This document shows positions 17,278 to 29,877 of a DNA stretch of 30,938 nt, piece by piece. The notes under the pieces were generated by a model, which had not been told where the DNA came from, searched no databases, and worked only from the letters and a program-made list of their open reading frames with translations. Location of the stretch: positions 1 to 30,938 of the IMG/VR virus record IMGVR_UViG_3300025647_000172; one strand, given 5' to 3'. This DNA is from a virus. Numbering within the stretch: position 1 is the first letter of the stretch; each line of letters starts with the position of its first letter. Made by a program: the position numbers and the translations under genes.

Positions 17278-17300
17278 AAAGGGGAGCATAAAGCTCCCCA
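17270..17300 (-). terminator. Rho-independent terminator of the leftward operon
   Basis: A perfect 7-bp stem, GGGGAGC (17281-17287) and GCTCCCC (17293-17299), with a 5-base loop. Read on the minus strand it is followed by TTTTTATTT, the classical terminator form. Read on the plus strand the tail is only AAATCTTT, so it is a weaker terminator for the tail genes. It lies six bases past the methyltransferase stop, between the two convergent blocks. Confidence 0.88.
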
Positions 17301-17305
17301 AATCT

Positions 17306-17800
17306 TTAGTAAGTCTTCACTGCAAACCTGAATCGATTATCTATTTCAGGCACTAGCGTAAGGGTATCAAACCACTTACCTAGGTAGTTGAGCCACCAAT
17401 CCTTAGGATGCACTGTAATGTGTGCAGGGCTTCCATCAGATAGTTTATGTGTATCAAGTGCAATCGCTATTGCAAAGAACACCTTATCACCATACTGTAG
17501 CATCTCATCAATGTAGGCAGGTATGTTACCTTCCGGTATATGCTCCAGTACATCCGTATTGATTATCCAATCAAACTTCCCCTCAGGCTTTATATCCCTC
17601 CCCATGACGTAAGGATCGTACTGGTACTTGATCTTTATTGGAAACTTATCAAGTAACTGACTCTGACCGCATGAGTAATCCAGAACACTCTTAGCGTCTT
17701 TAGGTCTGTGGTTCCAGATGGTATCAACCATTTGCTCACTACTTATACCGTACCTGCCTCGACTGTGTAACTTACGATATTCGTTTCCATAATCAATCAT
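17306..17800 (-). CDS. SAM-dependent class I methyltransferase
   Basis: 164 residues. Motif I is VLDYSCG (residues 39-45), an acidic residue after strand 2 is D62, and the motif IV region is FDWIINTDVLEHIPE (76-90), all of which fit small class I (Methyltransf_11-like) enzymes that use S-adenosylmethionine. The substrate is unknown: there is no target-recognition domain typical of large DNA methyltransferases and no DPPY/NPPY motif, so a small molecule, RNA or protein target is possible. It is the last gene of the leftward operon, with GGAGG 10 bases before the ATG and an 8-base overlap with the upstream gene. Confidence 0.82.
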   Translation of the reverse strand: MIDYGNEYRKLHSRGRYGISSEQMVDTIWNHRPKDAKSVLDYSCGQSQLLDKFPIKIKYQYDPYVMGRDIKPEGKFDWIINTDVLEHIPEGNIPAYIDEMLQYGDKVFFAIAIALDTHKLSDGSPAHITVHPKDWWLNYLGKWFDTLTLVPEIDNRFRFAVKTY

Positions 17801-17978
17801 CTAACCCTAACCTCCAAACCATTGCTTGCGCCCATATGTAGCTATCTGCTACAACCCCGCCTATCGGCATGTACCCAGATCTTATACTTGATATAACTTT
17901 ATCCTGAAGATCTTTGGCATTCTTACCAACCACTATTATGTACGTTTCCAGTTCTTGTCCCTTCTTAACATCTTGCAT
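17793..17978 (-). CDS. DUF1737-like small protein
   Basis: 61 residues. The layout fits the DUF1737 family: an N-terminal strand (TYIIVVGKN), a helix (DLQDKVISSI), the characteristic GYMPIGGVV turn, and QAMVWRLG at the C-terminus. Function is not known in any member I can name. AGGAGG stands 10 bases before the ATG. The gene overlaps both neighbours, the ParB-like gene by 43 bases and the methyltransferase gene by 8. Confidence 0.75.
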   Translation of the reverse strand: MQDVKKGQELETYIIVVGKNAKDLQDKVISSIRSGYMPIGGVVADSYIWAQAMVWRLGLDD

Positions 17979-18355
17979 ATCTCCATAGCCTCCTCTTTGC
18001 TATACACCAGACAGCTTACTGCATCTATGTTTGTAAAGTGATTGATTAATGCCCAATACCTATTATTACCGCACTGAACTCTGTACCTCACTTGAGATCC
18101 AAACACCCTAGGCTGTAGACAGGCTTCTCCCTGCTCCTTGCAGTCCTCCCACCATTCATCTTCATCAACCTGAGCGATGATCAGTGGATAGAGTAGACCC
18201 TCCTTCTCCATGCTATTAATCACTGAACTGTAGAAATCTTCACTCTGTACCTTAGCGAAGGGTTCTAACATATCCAGTGGTAACATTATGGCATTCTCGG
18301 AATGGTACTTGCTCTCAAGTATCCCATCACCTATTTCGCTTACCTTGTTTGGCAT
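17936..18355 (-). CDS. ParB-like domain protein (second of a tandem pair)
   Basis: 139 residues. A ParB/sulfiredoxin-like core runs from a strand-turn (MLPLDMLEPF, 24-33) through a helix and GLLYPLII (53-60) to YRVQCGNNRYWAL (91-103), where CGNNR replaces the usual G-x-R/H-R phosphate-binding motif. The 40-residue C-terminal extension is helical and charged. The upstream gene has the same CGNNR motif, so the two are probably ancient paralogues. No helix-turn-helix of a true partition ParB is seen. The ATG has GAGG 10 bases upstream; the start region overlaps the upstream gene by 29 bases. Possible nucleotide-binding or nuclease activity is inferred from fold only. Confidence 0.7.
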   Translation of the reverse strand: MPNKVSEIGDGILESKYHSENAIMLPLDMLEPFAKVQSEDFYSSVINSMEKEGLLYPLIIAQVDEDEWWEDCKEQGEACLQPRVFGSQVRYRVQCGNNRYWALINHFTNIDAVSCLVYSKEEAMEICKMLRRDKNWKRT

Positions 18356-18728
18356 TGAACCATTTCCTCATCTCTTTACAATATCCACTACCTGCGCTGA
18401 AAGACTCAACCATCAGAACATCAACCTCGGTGTATCCGAGTTCCTTTAAAGCCCTTACACGATTATTACCACAGGTAACAAAGTACCCCGCAGTTTCATC
18501 AGGTATCGACTCGTCAGGCTTTAAGAACACACTCTGTAGGTTTATAAACTTCCTCCAATCACCATGCGTCACGGCTACGACAACTGGAGGATACTCAAGC
18601 GGCTCTGACTCTACAGAAGCTTTGATCAGCCTGTAGTCATCCGGGTGACTAGGTGGGACTGTAATGCTTACCTCATCAATAGGGAGGGTGGCATTAACCA
18701 AGTCCTGTCTGATAGGGTAAGCCCTCAT
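18327..18728 (-). CDS. ParB-like domain protein (first of a tandem pair)
   Basis: 133 residues from the ATG at 18728, chosen because AGGTG precedes it by 7 bases and it overlaps the FmdB gene's stop (ATGA). A TTG two codons earlier is less likely. It contains LPIDEVSI, a variable helical part and GYFVTCGNNRVRALKELGYT (81-100), followed by VDVLMV, which is the terminal strand of the ParB/sulfiredoxin fold. CGNNR at 86-90 is shared with the next gene. The C-terminal 25 residues are basic. No function beyond the fold can be assigned. Confidence 0.72.
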   Translation of the reverse strand: MRAYPIRQDLVNATLPIDEVSITVPPSHPDDYRLIKASVESEPLEYPPVVVAVTHGDWRKFINLQSVFLKPDESIPDETAGYFVTCGNNRVRALKELGYTEVDVLMVESFSAGSGYCKEMRKWFNAKQGKRNR

Positions 18729-18925
18729 GACCAATCACCTGTATCTTTATGATCTCTTCTATAGAATCCCTCACCATAAAGCCTAAAGCTTTGACCGGAT
18801 GCACTCATTTTCTTCTCCGTGTTCACACCACCACATTCAGGGCATATCGCTATACCTTCCTTACCTATCCATAACTTTTCAAATACAACCTCGCAATCAT
18901 TGCAGGTGTAGTCAAAAATTGGCAT
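18725..18925 (-). CDS. FmdB-type zinc ribbon protein
   Basis: 66 residues. It begins MPIFDYTCNDCEVVF, which is the FmdB N-terminus, and has C-x2-C (8, 11) and C-x2-C (CPEC) about 20 residues later, forming one zinc ribbon. A GQSFRLYGEGFYRRD segment follows, also typical of this family. AGGAGG 5 bases before the ATG at 18925 fixes the start; a longer reading would add 17 residues without support. FmdB-family proteins are putative regulators; the phage copy's target is unknown. It overlaps both neighbours by 4-14 bases. Confidence 0.85.
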   Translation of the reverse strand: MPIFDYTCNDCEVVFEKLWIGKEGIAICPECGGVNTEKKMSASGQSFRLYGEGFYRRDHKDTGDWS

Positions 18926-24492: not shown

Positions 24493-24713
24493 CAGTGTAA
24501 CTCCTTACCTTCAGACATACTATTAAAGAAGTCCGATACTTCATCAAACTCAACAGAGCCGATTGCATCATACAGAACATCATCATCAGTTGCTATCAAG
24601 TAGTACAGCACCATTACGAAGCTTCTCAATGTATCATCACCGTGAAACTGATCTATCGTCAGACTGATTCCACCATCTTCAAAGAAGGATATTGAGTGAA
24701 CCGAGTTATCCAT
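24492..24713 (-). CDS. Small acidic hypothetical protein
   Basis: 73 residues: a short beta region (SISFFEDGGISLTIDQF) then an acidic helical region (LRSFVMVLYYLIATDDD). No family recognised. GGAGG 6 bases before the ATG. One-base overlap with the following MazG gene and 8-base overlap with the upstream metallophosphoesterase. Such acidic small proteins are frequent in phage early regions; function unknown. Confidence 0.75.
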   Translation of the reverse strand: MDNSVHSISFFEDGGISLTIDQFHGDDTLRSFVMVLYYLIATDDDVLYDAIGSVEFDEVSDFFNSMSEGKELH

Positions 24714-25461
24714 AGTTTTCCTCCAAATACCGTAAGCTTACAGGAAGTTCGTCAAAGTGACCATCTTCCACTTCATTCAACATCCAAACTCCAGACCAAG
24801 AACCATTAGTCTGAGGATTCAGATAATCCTCATCATGTCTGTAGCAGATACCAGAGAATAGACCAGTGAGGTATTTGCCATCACCTCGCTTTGCGTAGGC
24901 TATATCCCTATCCTGAACATGACCCATAACACATGACATCATCTTCTTTGTAAGTAAAGCCCTTGCACTTGTAACTGGCTTACCCATTACGCCAGAAGTA
25001 AAGTAGTGACAGAAAGCTACCCCTTCAATTATCACAGGCTGCAGGAAAGGGTGAACTTCCCAATCACTCAGGTTAAAGTCTTCAGTCTTCAGAAGACCAT
25101 CAAGCTTTGCATCATTCTCTATAGCTCTCCTTATTCTATCTTCATGGTTACCGATAGTGAATACCAAGCGTGGGGTATACACTTTCTTTTTATTGTTCTT
25201 CTGTCTACGTTGCATAGACTTCAAAGGCTTTAGAAGAACATCCATTGCTTCATTACCTGCCTTAATATCCTCTACATATCTCCTCCCTTCAAATGACTTC
25301 TTACCAACATCGTATGAACTGAGACTAGGCATATCCCAGTGATCACCTATATGAACTACAACGTCAGGCTTCTTATCTACAATGTACTTACCAACCCATT
25401 CAAGATGCTGTACGCTTTGGTTTGGCTTTACCTGAGTATCCGGTATAACAACAATTCTCAT
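24706..25461 (-). CDS. Calcineurin-like metallophosphoesterase
   Basis: 251 residues. The five metal-binding blocks of the family are visible: D8 (PDTQ), GDHWD with D40 and H41, GNHED with N105 and H106, H152 (CHYF) and H181 (MGHVQD). The fold supports two-metal phosphoester hydrolysis; the substrate (nucleic acid, nucleotide or protein) is not clear. ATG at 25461 is supported by GGAGG 5 bases upstream; a longer reading from a TTG at 25473 lacks support. The start lies inside the end of the endonuclease gene (62-base overlap). Its place in the operon points to DNA processing or nucleotide scavenging. Confidence 0.88.
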   Translation of the reverse strand: MRIVVIPDTQVKPNQSVQHLEWVGKYIVDKKPDVVVHIGDHWDMPSLSSYDVGKKSFEGRRYVEDIKAGNEAMDVLLKPLKSMQRRQKNNKKKVYTPRLVFTIGNHEDRIRRAIENDAKLDGLLKTEDFNLSDWEVHPFLQPVIIEGVAFCHYFTSGVMGKPVTSARALLTKKMMSCVMGHVQDRDIAYAKRGDGKYLTGLFSGICYRHDEDYLNPQTNGSWSGVWMLNEVEDGHFDELPVSLRYLEENYG

Positions 25462-25888
25462 AGTTTCCTCCAAGGAAGAAGTTGAAGAGGTTGATCATCT
25501 GTTCTTCATCCCTTCCAGTGTATTTAATAAATCCTCTGCATCCCTCAAATGACCAATTGTATCCATTATCTCGGTCAAGATAAGATCCAGATAAAATGAT
25601 TGCAACTGCCTCTGCGAACCTGATAGCTGACTTAGAAGTGAATGCTGATAGTATACTGCGTTTAGTAATGCAGGCAGCTCCGCTTTCAACATCTCTAAGG
25701 AGTTCCTTAGACGAACCGATGTAGTCTCGCCACCCTGAATCGACCCAACTCCTTCCTCGCTTACTCCAGAATTGCTTTCTGCCAACGTAATACCCTCCAT
25801 TATCTAACTCGATAAGGTATATGAAACCAAGCAAGTCATCGAGGTTAGTGTCAAGATCGATCCCAGTTAGATTCACCCAGTTATTCAA
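25400..25888 (-). CDS. GIY-YIG-like endonuclease
   Basis: 162 residues. The hallmark strand is present as GFIYLIELDNGGYYVGRKQF (residues 21-40; FIY and YVG replace GIY and YIG), followed by WRDYIGSSKELL and a later Glu (RFAEAVAII), a layout seen in phage endonucleases of this type. There is no ATG near the N-terminus; TTG at 25888 overlaps the upstream stop as TTGA and is the likely start (GTG at 25876 is the alternative). The last 20 residues extend over the metallophosphoesterase start and look like a run-on tail. Possible roles: host DNA degradation or homing. Confidence 0.8.
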   Translation of the reverse strand: MNNWVNLTGIDLDTNLDDLLGFIYLIELDNGGYYVGRKQFWSKRGRSWVDSGWRDYIGSSKELLRDVESGAACITKRSILSAFTSKSAIRFAEAVAIILSGSYLDRDNGYNWSFEGCRGFIKYTGRDEEQMINLFNFFLGGNYENCCYTGYSGKAKPKRTAS

Positions 25889-28067: not shown

Positions 28068-29417
28068 CTAGTGAGTTTCACACCAATTCCTACCAACCTT
28101 AACATCACCGATGATTGGTACACTAACCTTAAGGAATTCTCCTGATTTGACAAAAGCTTCCAGTGCAAGTTCCGTAATCTCCTCCTCATCTTCAGGTCTT
28201 ATCTCAAACTGGAACTCGTCATGCATATGCAAGATCTGATGTGCATCCAGTTTACGCTCCCTGATCCACTTGTTCAGGAACAACGTAGCAACCTTCACCA
28301 CAATAGATCCACCGGACTGAAACATGGCATTGACGATTGCATGTTTTGATCTGATGAATATCTTACGACCATCAAGACCGTACAGGTATCCTCTCTCATC
28401 CCATACCCTTGTCACATGATCCCTGAACTCAGCCAGTGCGGTGTTACCATCCCAGAACGCATCGTACAGCCTCTTGGCCTCCCATATGGGTATGCCTAGT
28501 GTCTCAGCAATCTTGGGTGGTTGCGCTCCGTAGGTCATCGCATACTTGGGAGCTTTCGCACCATCTCGGTCAGTGCCAAATAGTACAGCATTCTTGGCGT
28601 GAATATCACCATCAATCAACTCGTAAGCATATGCCTTACCTCCAGTATAGTTATAACAATAATGAGCCTCCATCCTAGCCTCAAGTGCTGAAGCATCGCA
28701 ACCTAGCATCAGTTTACCTTCAGGCACTCTGAACAGAGAACGCATCTCCTTACCGTAGACAACCTTATCGGAAGCCTTAGGTACGTTCACAACAATGCTG
28801 TGTCTGTACCTTCCGGTATTGGTAGCCTGTGGCATGGACTTAGCCTCAAGCCTACCGTCATCCCTCAACAATGCAATCCAACCTTTCTCATGTGGGTTCT
28901 TGATGTTGAGTATAGAATTCCTCCGGTGTTTCAGAATGTTGTACCTAGCTATCATCTTCGGTATCTCAGATTGAATAGAATCAAACGAGTCCTCAGTAAG
29001 CTTCGGTGACATCTTCTCGCCATCCTTCATGTTCCACTGTGTAGGAATCCACCCCTCGGATAAGAGGTAATCCTTGACTTGTGGACTTGAATTCAGGTTC
29101 ATTGGTATCCAACGTATACGAGTGAAAGCACCACCAACATTAGGAGCTTTGTCACCATACCAATCCCATACCAATTTCTTAAGCTGACCATTCTTCTTGA
29201 ACGGTGCTTCAACTACAACACCATGCTGTGATGCGGTGGGTGGTACGAGTTGTATGACCTTGTGGTTAATGCACTCCATCTCGTCATCTATCTCAGCACA
29301 CAGATCATACGCCAGATCAGTATCGAACAGCACCCCTGTTAATTCCTGCCTTGCCTGAATCAGAGCTATGTTGTGTTCTACCTTGATAGCCGTGTTCCAT
29401 TTCCCAAAGTAATTCAT
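28068..29417 (-). CDS. Family A DNA polymerase, polymerase domain
   Basis: 449 residues carrying palm, fingers and thumb, without the exonuclease. Motif A is LMLGCDASALEAR (D241), motif B (O-helix) RDGAKAPKYAMTYG with R284, K288, Y292 and Y296, and motif C HMHDEF (H399, D400, E401). The O-helix residue equivalent to E. coli Pol I position 762 is Tyr (Y292), as in T7. Conserved homology begins at WNTAIKVEH (residue 7 on); residues 1-6 are the shifted reading of upstream codons. The ATG has GAGGAG 8 bases upstream, so independent translation is possible. Overlaps the exonuclease ORF by 101 bases in another frame. Confidence 0.92.
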   Translation of the reverse strand: MNYFGKWNTAIKVEHNIALIQARQELTGVLFDTDLAYDLCAEIDDEMECINHKVIQLVPPTASQHGVVVEAPFKKNGQLKKLVWDWYGDKAPNVGGAFTRIRWIPMNLNSSPQVKDYLLSEGWIPTQWNMKDGEKMSPKLTEDSFDSIQSEIPKMIARYNILKHRRNSILNIKNPHEKGWIALLRDDGRLEAKSMPQATNTGRYRHSIVVNVPKASDKVVYGKEMRSLFRVPEGKLMLGCDASALEARMEAHYCYNYTGGKAYAYELIDGDIHAKNAVLFGTDRDGAKAPKYAMTYGAQPPKIAETLGIPIWEAKRLYDAFWDGNTALAEFRDHVTRVWDERGYLYGLDGRKIFIRSKHAIVNAMFQSGGSIVVKVATLFLNKWIRERKLDAHQILHMHDEFQFEIRPEDEEEITELALEAFVKSGEFLKVSVPIIGDVKVGRNWCETH

Positions 29418-29877
29418 CGTATATTCTCCTCGTCACTCTCACATCTTGCAGACAGTAGTCAAGCATCTCTTGTGAGAACTTATCAAACTCATGGAAGTCT
29501 CCCTTATGGAAACTCATAACCCTACCCCAACCTGCCAAGCTATGCCCCCACTGTCGGTCAGGGTAAAACAGTGAAGATAGTATGAACGTATCGGTAATCC
29601 TATCAACCATTGAATCTACCGGCAGTCTGAGTAACTTCTCCATTACAGGGAAATCATATCCCATACCGTTGTGATAAATTAATTCCTCGGCACTTTCAAT
29701 TAACTGCCTATGTTTTAAGAAACTAAGAAGTGTAGAATTCTTAGGTAGCCTAATGTCAGAGTCTCCGGTGTGCGATATGTACCAGTGGTTATTGTCGATG
29801 TCATAATTGACCATACAATGAATAACACTGGCATCATAAAGCAAACCATCACACTCTATGTCACCTACAAGTCTCAT
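29317..29877 (-). CDS. Family A DNA polymerase, 3'-5' proofreading exonuclease domain
   Basis: 186 residues with the DEDDy exonuclease motifs: GDIECDG (D6, E8), LIYHNGMGYD (D75) and YCLQDVRVTRRIY (Y141, D145). This matches the N-terminal domain of T7-type polymerase. Conserved sequence stops at about residue 160 (YDELLWEM); the last 26 residues are a low-complexity Gly/His/Ser/Arg tail that is merely the other-frame reading of the polymerase gene. The polymerase domain continues in the +1 frame. GGAGG 9 bases before the ATG; ATGA overlap with the upstream gene. Confidence 0.88.
   Translation of the reverse strand: MRLVGDIECDGLLYDASVIHCMVNYDIDNNHWYISHTGDSDIRLPKNSTLLSFLKHRQLIESAEELIYHNGMGYDFPVMEKLLRLPVDSMVDRITDTFILSSLFYPDRQWGHSLAGWGRVMSFHKGDFHEFDKFSQEMLDYCLQDVRVTRRIYDELLWEMEHGYQGRTQHSSDSGKAGINRGAVRY

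Follow-up and report, generated by a model that had tools for sequence, protein, structure and literature searches.

A tandem pair of predicted ParB/sulfiredoxin-fold proteins in a recurrent phage gene block with a Methyltransf_23-type methyltransferase

The window, the stretch of DNA analysed here, corresponds to an IMG/VR virus record, a fragment with a length of 30,938 bases. It encodes two adjacent ParB-like paralogues, PB1 and PB2, in a compact gene block with a class I SAM methyltransferase (MT). The block looks like a real, conserved but modest accessory module. An association between phage ParB folds and Methyltransf_23 domains is already known in the form of fusions, and the window contains a variant: a tandem pair encoded separately from the methyltransferase, in a cassette that also includes a zinc ribbon. 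The explanation we favour, to which we give about an even chance, is that PB1 and PB2 are NTP-binding accessory proteins of a Methyltransf_23-type O-methyltransferase acting on a glycan or small molecule and not on a DNA base. The features of the block are listed here in order of position.

17281..17299, minus strand: intrinsic-terminator-like hairpin (GGGGAGC-TTTAT-GCTCCCC plus a T-run), located after MT and between convergent gene blocks
17306..17800, minus strand: MT, 164 aa, compact class I SAM methyltransferase, Methyltransf_23/UbiG/Hen1-like
17793..17978, minus strand: small ORF, 61 aa, labelled DUF1737 in the first-pass annotation
17936..18355, minus strand: PB1, 139 aa, predicted single-domain ParB/sulfiredoxin-fold protein, CGNNR at residues 95–99, paralogue of PB2
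18327..18728, minus strand: PB2, 133 aa, predicted single-domain ParB/sulfiredoxin-fold protein, CGNNR at residues 86–90
18725..18925, minus strand: FmdB-like zinc ribbon (Zn_ribbon_8), 66 aa from the ATG at 18925

The first-pass annotation had reported two neighbouring reading frames that share a CGNNR motif, and both frames and both motifs lie where it placed them. The start of PB2 was given as TTG at 18734 in the ORF list; an ATG at 18728 forms an ATGA overlap with the zinc-ribbon stop codon. PB1 and PB2 are 29% identical over 111 residues (E = 3e-9 in a single BLASTP comparison), and their alignment has a Z-score of about 14.6 relative to 2000 shuffles. The two proteins are therefore homologous, and the common CGNNR reflects descent, not chance. 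As judged from their sequences, they are a diverged paralogue pair that duplicated anciently, although a tree of the ParB-like proteins leaves the timing unsettled. A second conserved Cys-Lys, additional to the cysteine that precedes GxxR, is located near the C-terminus of both window proteins (17936–18728) and of the ParB-like protein at L097:4059–4541 (residue 140).

Placement of the pair in the ParB/sulfiredoxin superfamily, also proposed in the first-pass annotation, is supported by the ParB_N matches of homologues and by the fold matches of PB1, with PB1 and PB2 themselves falling below the Pfam ParB_N cut-off. PB1 matches this family at E = 0.25 (11.9 bits; cut-off 26.3) and PB2 does not match it. 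The homologues, gp50 of Roseobacter phage CRP-9 and its relatives, align to PB1 at E values of about 1e-4 to 1e-6 and match ParB_N at 6.6e-5 to 3.1e-4, likewise below the cut-off. When the family profile is compared with the PDB, the best chain is a sulfiredoxin (E = 0.0048), and Spo0J and ParB match weakly. An AlphaFold2 model of PB1 is of modest confidence (pLDDT 65), and its top 15 Foldseek matches in the PDB all belong to the superfamily (sulfiredoxin, ParB/Spo0J, Noc, SbnI and SerK), each with an E value of 0.16–0.85. The remote homology and the modest model together suggest that PB1 adopts the ParB/sulfiredoxin fold. The pair lacks a partition-type DNA-binding domain, as first described: both are single-domain proteins of 133–139 residues with no helix–turn–helix or dimerization domain in Pfam or PHROG scans, which, together with their sub-threshold ParB_N scores, distinguishes them from the ParB proteins of ParABS systems. 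No ParA is found among the proteins scanned in this fragment.

Only the glycine and arginine of the motif, plus the start methionine, are invariant among ten ParB-like sequences. The motif is CGCNR in L097, CGHFR in L122 and GNNR preceded by isoleucine in CRP-9. GxxR is the phosphate-binding P motif of the published ParB-CTPase family, in which NTP binding depends on the arginine (Kaljevic et al., PNAS 2025, PMC12704722). The CGNNR sequence is indeed common to the two window genes, but its description as an altered motif was overstated. Because glycine and arginine alone are invariant and the published motif is GxxR, CGNNR reads as an ordinary ParB P motif with an unusual third residue (Asn where Arg or His is usual). 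With GxxR retained, PB1 and PB2 most likely bind NTP. The fold superfamily and the phosphate-binding arginine are also common to sulfiredoxin and the SbnI/SerK serine kinases. Sulfiredoxin-like chemistry was considered for the pair and rejected because the catalytic cysteine of the sulfiredoxin GGCHR motif is absent; its position is occupied by asparagine (N97 of PB1, in the G..R register).

The assignment of MT as a SAM methyltransferase is well founded, with a PHROG match at 3.8e-12 and a Methyltransf_23 (PF13489) match at 8.2e-6 that lies just below the cut-off (26.1 versus 27 bits). The MT model is confident (pLDDT 93) and gives 118 matches in the PDB with E ≤ 0.001, the nearest being ChlM, followed by HEN1 (E = 3.8e-5), DhpI and similar small-substrate enzymes. 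Residues D83, E86, H87, H127 and W136 are invariant, the first four across 35 relatives; these four would fit a putative metal-binding site of the form ExxEH...H. The family is large in phages, with at least 567 members (567 of the 600 candidates listed were confirmed).

The relatives of MT keep glycan-type company. Among 111 genes scanned next to 59 representative relatives, ten encode Glyco_transf_8 and eight encode MptE-like proteins, and eight of ten long ORFs of the family that were scanned fuse the methyltransferase domain to an MptE-like domain. Four of these fusions also contain FkbM, and two of the four a 2OG-oxygenase domain. In viruses S20/SI1, ctDrO704 and CcrSC, the named relatives have neighbours annotated or read as glycosyltransferases. 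Loci with a ParB-like gene beside the methyltransferase mostly have no clear glycosyltransferase neighbour. The glycan-type neighbours and fusions of the family argue against a DNA base as substrate, and MT probably acts on a glycan or small molecule. A literature search for precedents linking MptE-like proteins, phages and glycosyltransferases returned nothing useful. The combination of MptE-like, Methyltransf_23 and FkbM domains forms multi-enzyme phage polypeptides of 700–900 residues (L104:4134–6242, L102:4140–6794, L107:1865–4555 and L114:4986–7301), two of which also carry a 2OG-Fe(II) oxygenase domain.

In the window, virion genes occupy the plus strand up to 17277, and the minus strand carries genes for replication and nucleotide metabolism (helicase, PolA, NrdA, NrdB and ThyX). 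The cassette forms the 3′ end of a minus-strand operon of nucleotide-metabolism genes (NrdA, NrdB and ThyX). Its genes overlap by 4, 29, 43 and 8 nt, so the overlaps behind the earlier description of a translationally coupled cassette are real, but the thyX-to-MT operon has overlaps of 4–43 nt at every junction except NrdA/o67. Most of the operon is thus equally packed, and coupling or overlap alone does not define the cassette. Elsewhere on the minus strand, the family A DNA polymerase is encoded in two parts, a polymerase ORF of 449 aa (28068–29417) and an exonuclease ORF of 186 aa (29317–29877), which overlap by 101 nt. Relatives L009 (1621–3333) and L011 (848–2824) have a single ORF; the two-part gene of the window may have arisen by a natural split or a frameshift, or may reflect an assembly error. 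Also on the minus strand, a metallophosphoesterase gene (24706–25473) and a gene for a SegE-like GIY-YIG endonuclease (25400–25888) overlap by 74 nt.

The FmdB-type zinc ribbon is secure (Zn_ribbon_8 at 2.8e-11, 43.7 bits; cut-off 34.4). Beyond a counterpart in the L172 cassette, its relatives in IMG/VR lie in unrelated contexts, except at L179, where a reductase and a distant methyltransferase are nearby; the zinc ribbon may therefore be generic. The DUF1737 label on the small ORF had to be dropped, as a threshold as loose as E = 10 still yields no PF08410 match. A small ORF occupies the same position in L097, but the pairwise test is not significant, so the equivalence of the two is one of position only. 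Searches of the phage collection with the zinc ribbon and the small ORF gave no match, and nothing useful was found in the literature on FmdB proteins in phages.

The closest counterpart of the block is on IMG/VR contig 3300034073_002560 (L097 and L172), where a zinc ribbon, a ParB-like gene, a small ORF and a methyltransferase follow a ribonucleotide reductase gene in the same order as in the window. The L172 zinc ribbon is 40–44% identical to that of the window (43% at E = 4.5e-16), its ParB-like protein is 32% identical to PB2 (E = 1e-10) and its methyltransferase is 32% identical to MT (E = 1.8e-22). This contig differs in having a single ParB-like gene (with CGCNR), another type of reductase and an otherwise diverged genome, the reductase and most other genes having no match to the window. 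The reductase ORF of L097 (422–3370; 983 aa) appears, as judged by eye, to contain an intein.

ParB-like and methyltransferase genes are also neighbours in separate lineages. In CRP-9 and four related contigs the methyltransferase precedes the ParB-like gene. In L122 and L149 the ParB-like gene comes before the methyltransferase, and the L122 block is followed by 2OG-type genes. In L162 the methyltransferase is followed by a ParB_N protein that scores above the cut-off. The order thus differs: CRP-9 and L162 have the ParB-like gene downstream of the methyltransferase, and in the window, L097 and L122 it lies upstream. In 70 MT-selected records (2.0 Mb), three of five ParB_N matches are no more than 1 kb from the methyltransferase, where 8.8% would be expected (P = 0.006; 0.04 if L122 and L149 are treated as one case). 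The statistic is small and was devised once the first cases were known; it excludes the L087–L091 group, which was found through a ParB-like query.

The proposal that the cassette is a recurring unit is supported: the four-gene order recurs once and the ParB-like/MT adjacency several times. Most MT relatives, however, have no ParB-like neighbour, and in L090 (283–1142) a ParB-like gene directly follows a capsid gene without a methyltransferase. The genes do occur independently in these relatives, which is half of what the first-pass annotation named as refuting its idea, yet the block recurs. The N-terminus (MNLV) of the L090 ParB-like protein resembles the beginning of the methyltransferase fused to the ParB-like frame, an arrangement that may be a natural deletion or an assembly artefact. 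The whole cassette is absent from the closest NrdB relatives (L007–L011; 74–79% identity). The related loci were reached through MT and CRP-9: single-protein pattern scans of IMG/VR and tblastn searches of the phage collection with PB1 and PB2 gave no match, as did searches of phages with the L122 and L162 ParB-like proteins, and a scan of genome contigs with the ParB-like alignment gave no relative.

Among described systems, the nearest are the phage ParB-CTPase folds often fused to Methyltransf_23 (PF13489). ParB-fold/SAM-methyltransferase fusions bind ATP, and short single-domain phage forms of the fold also exist (PMC12704722). Common to these fusions and the window are a phage-borne GxxR ParB fold for which no partition function is expected and a Methyltransf_23 partner. 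The window differs in having separate genes, a tandem ParB-like pair, and a zinc ribbon and small ORF within the block. In Roseobacter phage CRP-9, gp51 (the methyltransferase) adjoins gp50 (ParB-like), and both belong to the same families as the window proteins. CRP-9 differs in that a single ParB-like gene with Ile in place of Cys before GNNR lies next to a capsid gene in reversed order, and no zinc ribbon or small ORF is seen.

In the mechanism we favour, PB1 and PB2 would be ParB-CTPase folds stripped of the helix–turn–helix and dimerization domains. They would bind NTP and serve as a nucleotide-dependent switch, a regulatory or substrate-activating partner of MT, with which they would associate physically. 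MT would methylate a hydroxyl group carried by a glycan, another small molecule or a component of the virion or envelope; a DNA base would not be its target. The zinc ribbon would belong to the same module, with less certainty. A more specific version, to which we give very little credence, is a two-component NTP-dependent methylation system. In it the duplicated pair, possibly as a heterodimer, would power or gate a Hen1/UbiG-like metal-dependent O-methyltransferase whose target during infection would be RNA ends or a glycan of the host envelope, making the cassette a hitherto unrecognized counter-defence or surface-modification module.

The genes could instead be independent passengers. The ParB-fold pair would then act alone, whether as a regulator that binds NTP, as a host-takeover protein or in some other role, and would owe its proximity to MT solely to phage gene mosaicism at the operon end. 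The many MT relatives that lack a ParB-like neighbour, the solitary L090 gene and the differing gene order between lineages are all consistent with this explanation. It is nevertheless rather unlikely, as it has to contend with the four-gene order common to L172 in an otherwise diverged phage, the adjacency repeated in separate lineages and the published fusions of the two domain types (PMC12704722).

The first-pass annotation had suggested a DNA or nucleotide modification or anti-defence unit. In a modification or anti-restriction unit of this kind, the ParB-like proteins would handle DNA and MT would modify bases. Phage ParB-fold domains are found fused to predicted DNA methylases, and anti-defence roles have been suggested for these fusions (PMC12704722); the cassette, moreover, ends an operon of NrdA, NrdB and ThyX genes. 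MT, however, has no [DNS]PP[YFW] DNA-methylase motif (its motif IV region reads TDVLEH) and, at 164 residues, no target-recognition domain. Its listed PDB neighbours are small-molecule, RNA or peptide methyltransferases, no N6_N4 methylase (PF01555) match occurs in the window, and the family context is glycan-like. MT is thus probably not a DNA-modifying enzyme, and we regard this reading, which the evidence on MT speaks against, as improbable. The least probable explanation that we weighed is a Hen1-like RNA-end or sugar-diol methyltransferase which, with an NTP-using ParB-fold partner, would counter host RNA-cleaving defences by a logic analogous to that of bacterial Pnkp/Hen1. The profile search with MT lists seven Hen1 chains (E = 0.001–0.006), the fold search places HEN1 second, and D83, E86, H87 and H127 are invariant. 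The ExxEH sequence is, however, also present in UbiG, which scores better in the profile search, and the top fold match is ChlM. Because these enzymes score equally well or better, the resemblance to Hen1, though it allows for an RNA-end substrate, is non-specific. Neither an RNA ligase nor a polynucleotide kinase is seen nearby, and the glycan-like context of the family weighs against this explanation as well.

Phages commonly encode single-domain ParB folds. The conserved block described here pairs them with one defined methyltransferase family, which provides a concrete partner and moves the expected substrate away from DNA and towards glycans or small molecules.
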